In this document: positions 221-6,187 of the stretch, piece after piece
How the letters are laid out: each line of letters opens with the position of its first letter
How positions within the stretch are numbered: position 1 is the stretch's first letter
Assembly (NCBI GenBank): GCA_023487445.1
Contig: JAMDBQ010000007.1
Span: 1 to 32,215 of the forward strand
Direction of reading: 5' to 3'
DNA length: 32,215 bases
From: Candidatus Martarchaeota archaeon
Lineage (GTDB): Archaea > Thermoproteota > Thermoprotei_A > Marsarchaeales > Marsarchaeaceae
Translations under genes and position numbers: made by a program
The notes under the pieces: model-generated
What the model was told of the DNA's origin: nothing
What the model saw: the letters and a program-made list of their open reading frames with translations, nothing else
Databases searched by the model: none

Positions 221-446
221 GCGTGGAGCGCATGGTTTCTGTGAATCGTCGGCCACCCACACAATACGCCCGATTTATGTCATCCGACCAAAGGATAAAT
301 TTGCATACACTTATCCCTAAAGATGAATAACCTAGCACCAAACGTTAAACTCCGTTCGACGAGTCAAGTGGCTGCTCACCCGTAATGTATCTCGGCTCGA
401 GCGACCTTGAAGTGGTTTTAACGCAGATTCACCCCGTGAGTACAGG

Positions 447-521
447 CGGGCCCGGAGGGATTTGAACCCTCGACCTACGGCTCCGGAGGCCGCCGCCCTA
501 TCCATGCTAGGCCACGGGCCC
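447..521 (-). tRNA. tRNA-Arg (anticodon CCG)
   Basis: A full cloverleaf can be folded by eye. The acceptor stem pairs GGGCCCG with CGGGCCC; the D stem is GCCT/GGGC with a 10-nt loop; the anticodon stem GCGGC/GCCGT encloses loop CTCCGGA (anticodon CCG); the T arm is GAGGG-TTCAAAT-CCCTC; the discriminator is G. It is 75 nt long. CCA is not encoded: the bases after the discriminator are CCT. It should read CGG codons. The 5' end is one base after the leuS stop codon, so it probably shares the leuS transcript. It is identical to the tRNA at 25792-25866 except at anticodon position 34. Confidence 0.96.
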
Positions 522-522
522 T

Positions 523-3477
523 TCAAGAGATGGTTATGGTGGGTTTTAAGGGCGCCGAGTTAGCTGAGCGCCTCATATCAGCGGATTCTTCCTCGGCGCA
601 CACGCTGATTCGAAGGCCAGTTGTCTTTTCAAGGTACGGTGCGGCCTTGATCAATGTGTCTGCTTCCTCGTCGATGAGTTGGCTAACCAGCTTTGGAGGC
701 TGTGTTCTCCATTCGCTGAGCGACTTCACGATTCTTTGGGCGAGCTGCGCCGCCTTGGCTTTGTCACCTATCTCTTGAGAAACGAGTTTGATTACGTCGG
801 GGGTAACCTTGACTGGCACTGAGCCGTTGGTTACAAGGGCTTTGGCGACGCGCCTTTTGAGCTCGGATGAATAGGCTACCTCGGCTGATCCCTTGTTCTG
901 CACGAGTCTAATCAGGTTGAGGAGGTCTTCGGCGACCACGTCAACGTATTCCTCTTGAACAAGAAGAAGCTGCTCCTCTTCGGATAGTGTGGTGTCGGGG
1001 AAGCCCTGGTGCTCTATTAGACCAGTGCCGCCAAGCACCCCGTAGCCCCACTGAGCTATGTGGGGGGCAAATGGATGGATGAGTTTGAGCCATTCGATGA
1101 GGTATGTCTTCTCAACTCTCCGTGAGGTGTCTCCGGCGCGCTTCCAGTAGCGCCTCAAATCGTCCCAGGGACCGTACAGCGCCTCGTTAAGAGCCGACCT
1201 CGTCCTCATCACTTCAAGGTTTGACGAAACCTCCGATGCCCTGCGCTTCAGTCTCGCGTACACCCATTCACCCAGCCTTTGCTCCGCGAATATGTAGTCG
1301 CCTTCCTTCGATGCTCTCTCAACCAGCTCCACGAATGCGTAAAGGTTCTCGGTGACAGACCGCACAACCGTGGTGTTCCAGTCGGGGTCGTCAAGGTTCT
1401 CAGAGCCGCCAAGGAGCGCACACCTAGTGACGTCTGCACCATAGTCTTCGAGGGCCTTGGAGAGCGGCACAAAGTTGCCGAGGCGTTTGTGCATGACTCC
1501 GCCGTTTACGGTGACCATGCCGTTAACCGAGACCGCCTTAGGCCAGTGGCGTTCGTCGAAGAGGGCGCAGTGGTGGAAGAGGAAGAAGGTCAGGTGGTTG
1601 GGTATAAGCTCCTTTGCGGAGTTTCGGAGGTCAACAGGGTACCAGTACAGGAACTCGGAGCGTATCTCCTCGAGTAAGAGGGGGTCGACGCCCGTTTTCT
1701 TAGAAACCTCTGAGGGGTCTCCCACACCATAGAATACGTGGTCAAAGAACTCTTTCTTCATCTGATTGGCTGAGATCCTGCCTGAGGCCACGTAGGGCGC
1801 GATGGTATAGTAGGCCATGTACACCGTTGAATCGCTCAGCGTCTCAACGATCCATTCCCTATCCCATGGGAGAGGAGTCCCCATTCCCGAGCGTCTGACG
1901 CACGCCTTGTCCTGCAGCCACGCCACGGTGTCCTCGTACATCTTCCTGGAATCTTGAGGGTAAACGTCCATCTGTGCAAGCTCTCTCAGGACCCGGTTCT
2001 TCCAGTTGGTGTCACTGTATTTGAGGAACCACTGGTTTTCAAGGATCTTGACCACGCATCTTGTGCCGCACCTGCACACCACGGGCTGCGGAAGCTCGAG
2101 GTAAATGTCAGCCAACTTCATCTCTCGGAGCTTCTCGTACACAGCCTGCTTGGCGAGAGAGACCTTCATCCCTTCGAAGCCCGTGCAGTTGGTTTTCAGC
2201 TCACCTTTGTTGTACTCGAGTTTGTACACGTTTGAGGTCGCCTTTTCGGCGGCAGATTCGGAGACACCGTGGATACCAAGGCGCTGCACCTCCTCTATAG
2301 CGGGGTAGTCCCCGTGTCCTTCAACTTCTATGATTGAGACCGGCTTGATCCCTTTGACTACCACTGGGTCCAAACCAATTTTCCTAAGCTCCGCTTCTGC
2401 TTTAGTTTGTAGCTCAACCAGACCCAGGTAGTCGTAGGGTGCATGAGCCGGGACACTGTATACCACGCCTGTGCCGAAAGTGGGGTCCACGAACGAGGCT
2501 GGTAGAACGGGTAAAGGCGTCTTCGCAAAAGGCTGACTCGCCGTGAGCCCTACGAGTGTTAACCCAGGCATCTTTTTGAGAACACGGACGCTGCGGCGCT
2601 GCTCTGCAAGCACGTTCGCACAGTACTCGCTCACGATCCATCTTTCCGAGTCCACTTCAGCCAAAACGTACTGCTTATCGGCGTTAACCCAGAGGTTTGT
2701 CGCGCCAAAGATTGTCTCCGGCCTGTACGTCGCCGCCACGAGGAAGACGCCTGAGAGGTCAGCGTCCCGCTTTCCCTCTTTAGATGGATCGAGGACGAAT
2801 TTGACGAGGTACATCTGATCCGGGGAAACGCCTTCTCCTTGGGATCTGTCGTGGTCGCCTGTGGGGCTTTTGTCCCGGGGGCACCATACAACCGGATGGG
2901 TCCCCTGCACCACGTACCCTTTCTCACGTAGTGAGAAGTACTGCCACTCGATGAATGCAGAGTATGCTGGGTTGTGTGCGGTTGCAAACTCCCTGCTCCA
3001 GTCAACTGATGCCCCCAACCTCTTCAAGGCGGCTCTGCCCGTAGATGTGAAATATGATGCTATGTAGTATGGGTCCTTGAAGTTGTGGAGCTCCGACGGA
3101 GGAACGCCGTCGAGCTCCGTAAGAGTCTTTATAAGCGAAGGATCGCCCTCCGTCACCCTCTTAGAGATTCCTACTATTGGCTCACCGGTCCAATGCCACG
3201 CGAAGGGGAAGAGTACATTGAAGCCCTTCTGTCTGGAGTATCTTGCGTATGCGTCAACCCGGGACGCGGTAAACGCGTGTCCCACATGCAGTGAGGCGTT
3301 CATGTAGGGGTAGGGCATGGTGACGAATCTCTTGGGCTGGCCTGGACGGGGTTTGGCGAAATAGGGTTTCTCAGCATCCCAGACGCGTCTTGTGTACTCT
3401 TCCACTTCTTTTAGCTTCAAGGAATACTTGCTCACTCCGTCACCGACATTTCGAGAATTCGTGGTTTCAGTCACCAT
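523..3477 (-). CDS. leuS: Leucyl-tRNA synthetase, archaeal type, with altered KMSKS loop
   Basis: Class I synthetase charging tRNA-Leu in the cytoplasm; 984 aa, usual length for the archaeal/eukaryotic LeuRS type. Numbering here counts the TTG one codon upstream. Visible: HIGH motif as HVGH (65-68); CP1 editing domain with TYRPETIFG (251-259) and GTGVV...PAHAPYDY (337-351); tRNA-synthetase core GMGTPLPWDREW (532-543); VDLRNSAKELIPNH (616-629). The KMSKS region, normally KMSKSKGN, reads VMHKRLGN (662-669), keeping only M, the second K and GN. The C-terminal domain appears complete. AGGAGGTG lies just before the start; ATG at 3475-3477 is preferred over the overlapping TTG at 3478-3480. The start overlaps the end of alaS by 11 nt, so the two are co-translated. 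It could be a paralogue rather than the main LeuRS. Confidence 0.95.
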   Translation of the reverse strand: MVTETTNSRNVGDGVSKYSLKLKEVEEYTRRVWDAEKPYFAKPRPGQPKRFVTMPYPYMNASLHVGHAFTASRVDAYARYSRQKGFNVLFPFAWHWTGEPIVGISKRVTEGDPSLIKTLTELDGVPPSELHNFKDPYYIASYFTSTGRAALKRLGASVDWSREFATAHNPAYSAFIEWQYFSLREKGYVVQGTHPVVWCPRDKSPTGDHDRSQGEGVSPDQMYLVKFVLDPSKEGKRDADLSGVFLVAATYRPETIFGATNLWVNADKQYVLAEVDSERWIVSEYCANVLAEQRRSVRVLKKMPGLTLVGLTASQPFAKTPLPVLPASFVDPTFGTGVVYSVPAHAPYDYLGLVELQTKAEAELRKIGLDPVVVKGIKPVSIIEVEGHGDYPAIEEVQRLGIHGVSESAAEKATSNVYKLEYNKGELKTNCTGFEGMKVSLAKQAVYEKLREMKLADIYLELPQPVVCRCGTRCVVKILENQWFLKYSDTNWKNRVLRELAQMDVYPQDSRKMYEDTVAWLQDKACVRRSGMGTPLPWDREWIVETLSDSTVYMAYYTIAPYVASGRISANQMKKEFFDHVFYGVGDPSEVSKKTGVDPLLLEEIRSEFLYWYPVDLRNSAKELIPNHLTFFLFHHCALFDERHWPKAVSVNGMVTVNGGVMHKRLGNFVPLSKALEDYGADVTRCALLGGSENLDDPDWNTTVVRSVTENLYAFVELVERASKEGDYIFAEQRLGEWVYARLKRRASEVSSNLEVMRTRSALNEALYGPWDDLRRYWKRAGDTSRRVEKTYLIEWLKLIHPFAPHIAQWGYGVLGGTGLIEHQGFPDTTLSEEEQLLLVQEEYVDVVAEDLLNLIRLVQNKGSAEVAYSSELKRRVAKALVTNGSVPVKVTPDVIKLVSQEIGDKAKAAQLAQRIVKSLSEWRTQPPKLVSQLIDEEADTLIKAAPYLEKTTGLRISVCAEEESADMRRSANSAPLKPTITIS

Positions 3478-6187
3478 CAAACACCTCCTTGAGGAGTTTT
3501 ACAGAGTCGTCGAAGCTTTGGCGGAATTCAGCTGGCAACACAACCTCTCCGAACACTTTTCCTCCGCCACCCCGTCCGCCCAGCCTCTGTTTCAGCTTGG
3601 TTATGAAGCCGCTTATATCCGGTCCGTGCTTAGGGGAAGCGAGGGCTATCCTGTTGTTCGAGAACGCTATGACTATCCCGTCTACCGAGTCGGCGCATCT
3701 TGCAACAACAGTAGAGGGGTTAAGGTAGGGGTAGTCTCCGAGGTCAAGAATCCTGATCGACCCCCGACTGGAGCGTACAACCTCGGCTTTCTCAAGCAAG
3801 AGAGTGGTCAAGTCCGATTGGAGGCGTTCCAGCACTTGTTCCCGCCGCTTTTCCCGTTCAACTAGTTCCTGAAGCCTAGTCACAACGCCTTCGCGGTCGG
3901 AGTTAAGCGTCTTTGAGATACCTGATAGAATCGCCTCGTCGCTTCTGGCATGGTCGAGGGCGGCTTTCCCTGCGGCGAACACGAAACGCGTCACGCCGTC
4001 CTGTATTTGGTCGACTTTGAGTATCTTTATGATGCCTACGCTCCCGGTTAGCTCGGAATGGGTTCCACCGCATGCCTCCACGTCGAATCCCTCGATTGTG
4101 ACCAGTCTCAGCGTGGCTCCGGGTACGGCGCCACCCTGGTATATTGTGTCCCCGAACTTTGTCTCCGCTTGTGTCCGCGGAACGTATGATACACTTATCT
4201 TCCTGTTCTCCTGAACCACCCTGTTTGCGAGGTCTTCTATCGCAACGAACTCTTCCTGACTCAGCTTTTTGAAGTGTGTCACATCCAGCCTTGAATGGCT
4301 GAACCCCTTCTGAGCCCCTGCCTGCCAGATGTGAGGGCCGAGAATGGTTCTAATGGATGCCAAAAGTATATGTGTTGCATCGTGGTGTTGTGTGTGTCTC
4401 AGCCTGCGTTCCGGGTCCACGTAGCCTGTGACTGCGACGCCGGGTTTGACGAGGTCGTCGACGGGTCTGTCGAGGAAGTGAACCACTACCCCCCGAAGTA
4501 GCTGCGCGTCCACCACGCTGAATGATTTGTCTCCCATTTTGAGCGTGCCCTGGTCGGCTGGCTGGCCTCCTCCTTCGGGGTAGAAGCATGTCTCGTCCAG
4601 CACAACTTTGTCTCCGCTTGCGGCAAGCACTTTAGCATTGAATTCTAGGCGACCAGGTTCCTCGTAGTAGAGCTTCTTCGTGGGGGGCTGCTCGAGTAAA
4701 ACTTGATCAAGGGATTTCCCTTTAGGTTCAGGCTTCCTTGCATACGCGTGTCTTTCTGATACAAGTGTAAAGAAGTTGTCTGGTATGCGTATGTTAAAGC
4801 CTCTGGTTTCAGCGAATTCGGCCACGGTGTACGGGTCAATCCCCTTAGAGTCGTAAAGCTCTATGAGGTCTTCGGTTGAAGGTGGTTTGGAACCTGACCA
4901 TTTGGTGAGCATGGATCCAAGTACAGAACGAGCCTTGACTTGACTTTCCTCAAACCGTTGCTCTTCGAGCACCACCTCCTCTAGTACTGTGCCCACCATT
5001 CTTCCCAGTCTGGGAAAGTCTTTCCCCCACAGCTTCAGCTGCTCTGACACGAGCTCCTCCAGTGGCACCGGGTTTGGAAGCCTCTTTTTGAGTCTGAGCG
5101 CTCTTCTCAGAACAAGCCTTGCAAGATAGCCTTCCCCAGAGTTTGAAGGGACTATTCCATCGGAAAGCATGAACGAAAGCGTCTTGGTATGATCAAGTAT
5201 ACCGAAGACCGCTTCCGCGGGAGACAGAATCTTGGTTAGCTGCGCGGCGGGTATTCCCACTGAGCTCGAAACCTTTTCGCGGAGATTGGCGATGCTTTGG
5301 TCACCCTCCAAATTCATAATGGCTGAATATTTGGCGACGTCGTGAAGTACGTCTGCTGAAGGAATTTCTACTCCAAGCTTGTCGGCGAAGGACTTGACCA
5401 AGTCGCCGTAGATCGCGTGGAACGCAGTAGGTGTGCGTGCAGCAAGCCAGGTCATGCGTTCCATTCCGTAGCCAGTATCCACTATCTTGAGTGGAAGCGG
5501 ATGCCATGTTCCAGAAGCGTCAACCGAGTACTCCATGAATACTAGGGTGGCTATTTCTAGGCCGCCCACTGCAACTTCGAAGCAGGGGCCAGCGTTTCCA
5601 CCACCGATCCAGACAGACTCCTTGAGGGTGATGTCCTCTGGCTTTATACCGAGTTCCGAACCGTAGAAGTCGAGGCAGTATCTTACTGTCTCATCTTTCC
5701 AGTAAATGGTTTTTCCAGGGTTGTTGAACGCATGGTGACCACCCATTTCAAAGATCGTAGTGTGTCTTCCAGCGGTGAGGCCAACGTTGTCTATGTCTGA
5801 GAGTCTTATGCACGGCTGGCTAACCACGAGTGGGTTAGCCGGCGGGGGTGTTTCCCCGCTTGTCACGTATGGTTGAAACAGAACTATGCTTGCTATTGTT
5901 AGGTACAGGTCATCACGCCATCTTGCCGCCACGCTTCTCGGCTCAATCGGCGTGTGGCCCCTTTTAGCGAAGTAGTCTATGAATAACTTCCTAGACTGGG
6001 TTAGCGTAAGGGAACTCTTGGTGTAGGATTTATCCAAGAAGGTGTAGGGGACGCATGGCGCCTCACCACATGTGGTTCTGGAGTGGTCAAGCGTCCAAAA
6101 CCACTCTCCACCAACCACACACCTTTTGCGCTCAAATCCCTCCTCTTTAAAGTGCTTTACCGAGTACCAGGAGGGATCTGGTTCCAT
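3467..6187 (-). CDS. alaS: Alanyl-tRNA synthetase
   Basis: Class II synthetase for tRNA-Ala with a post-transfer editing domain; 906 aa, typical archaeal length. Order: N-terminal archaeal extension with a zinc-like patch; class II core with FEMGGHHAFNNPGK (146-159) and GGGNAGPCFEV (195-205); RLVLRRALRLKKR; beta-barrel linker with EGGGQPADQGTL (538-549); editing site HHDATH (601-606) and EACGGTH (704-710); C-terminal DHHA1-type domain ending with a glycine-rich GGRGGGGKVFGE. The N-terminal zinc patch usually has two CxxC-like pairs; here C23, C40 and C45 are present but the second position is Gly (CVVGG, 23-27). ATG start; a TATA-like box (minus-strand TTTTTAAC, 6214-6221) sits about 30 nt upstream, so the leader is a few bases at most. 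P1 lies 53 nt upstream. Confidence 0.97.
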   Translation of the reverse strand: MEPDPSWYSVKHFKEEGFERKRCVVGGEWFWTLDHSRTTCGEAPCVPYTFLDKSYTKSSLTLTQSRKLFIDYFAKRGHTPIEPRSVAARWRDDLYLTIASIVLFQPYVTSGETPPPANPLVVSQPCIRLSDIDNVGLTAGRHTTIFEMGGHHAFNNPGKTIYWKDETVRYCLDFYGSELGIKPEDITLKESVWIGGGNAGPCFEVAVGGLEIATLVFMEYSVDASGTWHPLPLKIVDTGYGMERMTWLAARTPTAFHAIYGDLVKSFADKLGVEIPSADVLHDVAKYSAIMNLEGDQSIANLREKVSSSVGIPAAQLTKILSPAEAVFGILDHTKTLSFMLSDGIVPSNSGEGYLARLVLRRALRLKKRLPNPVPLEELVSEQLKLWGKDFPRLGRMVGTVLEEVVLEEQRFEESQVKARSVLGSMLTKWSGSKPPSTEDLIELYDSKGIDPYTVAEFAETRGFNIRIPDNFFTLVSERHAYARKPEPKGKSLDQVLLEQPPTKKLYYEEPGRLEFNAKVLAASGDKVVLDETCFYPEGGGQPADQGTLKMGDKSFSVVDAQLLRGVVVHFLDRPVDDLVKPGVAVTGYVDPERRLRHTQHHDATHILLASIRTILGPHIWQAGAQKGFSHSRLDVTHFKKLSQEEFVAIEDLANRVVQENRKISVSYVPRTQAETKFGDTIYQGGAVPGATLRLVTIEGFDVEACGGTHSELTGSVGIIKILKVDQIQDGVTRFVFAAGKAALDHARSDEAILSGISKTLNSDREGVVTRLQELVEREKRREQVLERLQSDLTTLLLEKAEVVRSSRGSIRILDLGDYPYLNPSTVVARCADSVDGIVIAFSNNRIALASPKHGPDISGFITKLKQRLGGRGGGGKVFGEVVLPAEFRQSFDDSVKLLKEVFDGD

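Follow-up and report, generated by a model that had tools for sequence, protein, structure and literature searches.

The leuS locus

The window, which is the whole stretch of 32,215 nucleotides analysed here, contains a leucyl-tRNA synthetase (LeuRS) gene placed between alaS and a tRNA gene. The features considered are the following:

445..521, minus strand: tRNA-Arg (CCG), directly downstream of leuS (ARAGORN)
523..3480, minus strand: leuS, archaeal-type leucyl-tRNA synthetase, 985 aa from TTG 3480 (intact frame, profile matches, nearest structure)
1474..1497, minus strand: variant KMSKS loop VMHKRLGN, aa 662-669 (direct translation, alignment with other archaeal LeuRS)
3277..3288, minus strand: intact HVGH signature, aa 65-68 (translation and alignment)
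3467..6187, minus strand: alaS, upstream of leuS and overlapping its start (open reading frame)

Judging by the start context, the likelier start of leuS is ATG 3477, behind GGAGGTG; residue numbers would then be one lower than those used here, which are counted from TTG 3480. The protein matches the archaeal LeuRS model TIGR00395 (NCBIfam) over its full length with 884.1 bits, above the cut-off of 648.5, and NF008957/PRK12300 with 1038.7 bits (PRK12300 cut-off 677). The nearest solved structure is Pyrococcus horikoshii LeuRS (1wz2, E 2.8e-204). The alignment with this enzyme (PDB 1wz2, 1wkb) is full-length, from 21 to 984, and both proteins have HVGH and the DWSREF segment; P. horikoshii LeuRS, however, has the canonical KMSKSKGN where the window LeuRS has VMHKRLGN.

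Outside this loop the enzyme appears well preserved. The HxGH signature is present as HVGH, the DLRNSAKEL and DYGADVTR blocks can be read in the translation, and the CP1 editing domain is detected above cut-off (PF13603 at 251-351) with its GTGVVYSVPAHAPYD segment retained. Of 95 near-invariant columns (at least 95% conserved in archaeal LeuRS), 89 are retained, which rules out general decay. The six departures are K29Y, W30T, R162S, T166A, P267A and E810Q; those at W30 and E810 are common to the family mates, and R162S is no sign of damage, because P. horikoshii LeuRS also has DWSREF there. The branch length of 0.55-0.60, against about 0.36-0.56 for family mates, is not unusually long. An earlier note on this DNA had described HVGH, the editing domain and the flanking blocks as intact and had argued that the loop was not part of general decay; both statements hold.

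The variant loop and its distribution

Re-translation of the minus strand gives the loop codons GTC ATG CAC AAA CGC CTC GGC AAC and reproduces the earlier reading of VMHKRLGN at residues 662-669 (bases 1474-1497). The pentapeptide VMHKR departs from canonical KMSKS and retains only Met2 and Lys4. These two are the sole pentapeptide positions conserved at 95% or more in the surveyed archaeal LeuRS; thus, the canonical pentapeptide is neither invariant nor membership-defining for this family. The survey set covers the phylum and other archaeal phyla and includes 139 sequences with full loops, among which KMSKSKGN is the commonest (50), followed by KMSKSLRN and KMSKSLGN. VMHKRLGN occurs in the window gene alone, and the combination VMHKR in no other surveyed LeuRS.

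In the five other genomes of the same family (f1; G001-G005), the only LeuRS carries PMHKSKGN or HMHKSKGN, so the loss of Lys1 and the change of Ser3 to His are common to the whole family; the loop of the sister family f2 reads KMSKSKG[N/L/I]. A sequencing or assembly error behind VMHKRLGN is ruled out by the presence of the MHK core in these five relatives. Loops of the type xMHKSKG[NI] are found in families f1, f15, f19, f20, f28, f38 and f40; like the window LeuRS, they lack Lys1 and have His3, Met2 and Lys4, with one exception to Lys4 retention (Arg in L087 of f15). The xMHKSKG[NI] families keep Ser5 (or Thr; His in L087) and mostly Lys6, whereas the window LeuRS has Arg and Leu. The alternative form, written below as xMHK(S/R), is defined by the absence of Lys1, the presence of His3 and the retention of Met2 and Lys4.

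In the present sampling, Ser5 to Arg and Lys6 to Leu are private to the LeuRS of the window genome (G000), where they were added to a loop that had already changed. On the sequences compared, the odd loop is mostly lineage-normal. The earlier note had named this outcome as one that would overturn its reading, and it applies to Lys1 and Ser3, which are shared with the family, but not to the private change of Ser5. A more extreme loop than VMHKRLGN was also observed: L087 (G041, f15) has QMHRHLGN, in which the second Lys is Arg and Ser5 is His. Its source genome is rated 100% complete and has one strong LeuRS match.

Copy number and gene neighbourhood

The source genome of the window is represented by 603 kb in 22 contigs (71% complete, 0.3% contamination), compared with 1.4-2.6 Mb in family mates, which may reflect a reduced genome or missing accessory regions. 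A search with the LeuRS model found one LeuRS in this 71%-complete genome. The further matches were a 1048-aa frame on contig C3 and a 505-aa frame on contig C12, with the canonical loops KMSKSERN and KMSKSTGN; from the motif context of these loops, they are IleRS and CysRS. No ValRS above cut-off was found in the 71%-complete assembly, probably because it is incomplete. No second LeuRS was found in any of the five family genomes (78-93% complete), each of which has one. The search of the rest of the genome for a second leuS, proposed earlier, thus returned none in the 71%-complete assembly. The order alaS, leuS, tRNA-Arg is kept in all five family genomes, in agreement with the earlier argument that a place behind alaS and before a tRNA gene favours an active housekeeping enzyme.

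Mutual exclusion of His3 and Lys1

His occupies position 3 of the loop in 27 of the 139 archaeal LeuRS, and none of these 27 has Lys1; position 1 is then Gln, Gly, Pro, Glu, His, Ala or Val. Among the 112 LeuRS with Ser or Ala at position 3, Lys1 is kept in 107 and lost in five. Position 3 is always Ser, His or, once, Ala. Fisher's test would give p ~5e-24 for His3 against Lys1 under the assumption, untrue here, of independent sequences. The His3 state was mapped on a LeuRS tree built without the loop columns. Four changes are needed on the best tree; the supported branches alone require at least three changes to His3 in a careful IQ-TREE analysis and four in FastTree, and the His3 LeuRS form one group in none of 200 bootstrap trees. 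There are three to four independent His3/Lys1 pairs within LeuRS; each agrees in direction or is tied, and their number does not by itself reach significance.

His is not strictly required, since five Ser3 loops lost Lys1 without gaining it. Ser3 loops without Lys1 include L091 (G334; PLSKRAGR), L120 (G230; PMSKSKGI) and L133 (G382; PMSKSKGN), and these three may possibly be intermediates toward xMHK. A column scan for a compensating Lys or Arg elsewhere in LeuRS found no position common to all His lineages. The most promising column is Trp777 (window numbering), present in 92% of Lys1-type relatives and replaced by Arg in all f1 LeuRS and in L113. The same replacement is seen in two of four sequences from f19, f20, f28 and f40 and is absent from f15; L008, L010 and L113 are among its carriers. 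It is possible that Trp777 to Arg partially co-changes with the xMHK loop.

The xMHK loop in other class I synthetases

A DNA pattern for MHK[ST]xxG matched 301 of the 398 phylum genomes, and a reversed control pattern gave few matches. The matches examined belonged to ValRS (MMHKSYGN), CysRS (EMHKSLGN), IleRS (EMHKSLGN) and LeuRS; the first three identities were confirmed by NCBIfam with one or two examples each. These Thermoproteota enzymes have the same exchange in housekeeping class I synthetases as the window LeuRS, but they differ in amino-acid specificity and keep Ser5. The Lys-fronted pattern K-MHK[ST]xxGN had a single match in the 398 genomes, a 744-aa frame without LeuRS similarity that does not look like a synthetase. 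Thus, in the sequences examined, His3 and Lys1 are mutually exclusive across four enzyme families.

Outside Thermoproteota, xMHK looks rare: MHKS..GN matched 2 of 26 records from other phyla, a small sample. The MHK loop was absent from the five PDB alignments examined. A literature search lacking most subscription papers found no description of an MHKS or MHKSLGN loop or of the xMHK/KMSK exchange; a prior description is possible, given that gap.

Active enzyme, paralogue, decay or drift

The window gene is very probably the single, active, housekeeping LeuRS of its organism, with the alternative KMSKS form xMHK(S/R). This reading of the sequence comparisons draws on the single copy, the intact core, the conserved neighbourhood and the lineage-wide loop, and it favours the earlier proposal of an active enzyme that tolerates a rewired loop. 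The competing proposal was a paralogue with a different function; a canonical LeuRS would then be encoded elsewhere in the genome. Three of the five KMSKS residues are indeed changed in the loop, a second copy could sit in the missing part of the 71%-complete assembly, and LeuRS-like paralogues without HxGH are known in other families (e.g. in G034 and G027). Those proteins have lost HxGH, however, whereas the window LeuRS retains HVGH as well as its editing domain, scores above the equivalog cut-off of TIGR00395 and keeps its place next to alaS; no other LeuRS was found in its genome, and the only LeuRS of each relative has the MHK loop. A paralogue is consequently very improbable. The suggested parallel with the second LeuRS of Sulfolobales was of no help. 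In Sulfolobaceae, LeuRS-I is a second copy of the same archaeal family with a disrupted editing domain, which makes leucyl-adenylate without aminoacylating tRNA (review PMC9437257); its defect thus lies in editing and aminoacylation, and among the second LeuRS copies recovered from family f9, none has lost HxGH or KMSKS. Two proteins of family f11 are candidate non-catalytic LeuRS paralogues by sequence: L144 (G034:C1:830239-832389; 852 aa), without HxGH or a recognisable KMSKS loop, and L146 (G027:C1:395158-397415; 884 aa), without HxGH. In each of these two genomes a canonical LeuRS is present as well.

If the genome were shrinking, the loop could be in early decay and the enzyme less active. 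The small assembly and the two extra private changes would agree with this reading, yet it is given hardly any weight against the retained conserved columns, a branch length near that of the family mates and the KMSKS loops that IleRS and CysRS of this genome still carry. A stronger contender, though we consider it somewhat unlikely, is an active LeuRS whose loop has drifted neutrally at tolerant positions, with no special role for His3. Positions 1, 3, 5 and 6 are variable among archaeal LeuRS, five Ser3 sequences lost Lys1 without His, and the KMSKS motif has been described as of high sequence variance (PMC5919687). Drift, however, should produce more residue types at position 3 than Ser, His and one Ala in 139 LeuRS, and it should yield some KMHK loops, whereas His3 never occurs with Lys1 and the His3/Lys1 pair recurs in four enzyme families.

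Possible roles of the loop residues

In NgLeuRS with ATP and leucinol, Lys1 (K634) and Lys4 (K637) contact the beta-phosphate, Lys4 also binds the alpha-phosphate, and Ser5 (S638) binds the gamma-phosphate (PMC9424281). In E. coli LeuRS, Lys1 (K619) binds tRNA C75 and Lys4 (K622) the adenylate phosphate (PMC5059758). When both loop lysines of P. horikoshii LeuRS are replaced by alanine, the outcome depends on HVGH (PMC10450160); what each side chain does in this loop is therefore context-dependent.

By analogy, ATP activation by the window LeuRS would proceed normally, with Lys4 on the alpha- and beta-phosphates. The covariation suggests that His3 (His664) may take over the beta-phosphate contact of Lys1, its contact with tRNA C75, or both, and Arg5 (Arg666) could replace the gamma-phosphate contact of Ser5. 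His3, and here Arg5, probably takes over ATP-phosphate or tRNA contacts. Arg at position 5 is also present in the LeuRS L036 (KMSKRYGN) and L091. Active enzymes with Arg5 include human cytoplasmic IleRS (9w01_B, MSKRKKN) and the KLSKR variant (PMC3103580), which resemble the window LeuRS in this respect but keep Ser3.

Implications for class I synthetases

KMSKS is a textbook signature for judging the activity of class I synthetases. The present comparisons point to a large group of apparently essential enzymes without the first Lys of this motif, in which that loss goes together with a His two positions further along. The xMHK/KMSK exchange in general is more interesting than the window loop itself. 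There is about an even chance, in our estimate, that the class I signature has a second, convergent form in xMHK, where His3 functionally replaces the first catalytic Lys, and that this form was gained repeatedly in LeuRS, ValRS, IleRS and CysRS of Thermoproteota; VMHKR would then be a LeuRS form derived one step further, its Arg standing in for the Ser that contacts the gamma-phosphate. The exchange offers a natural, testable swap for the role of Lys1, and it carries a warning that xMHK enzymes should not be called degenerate.
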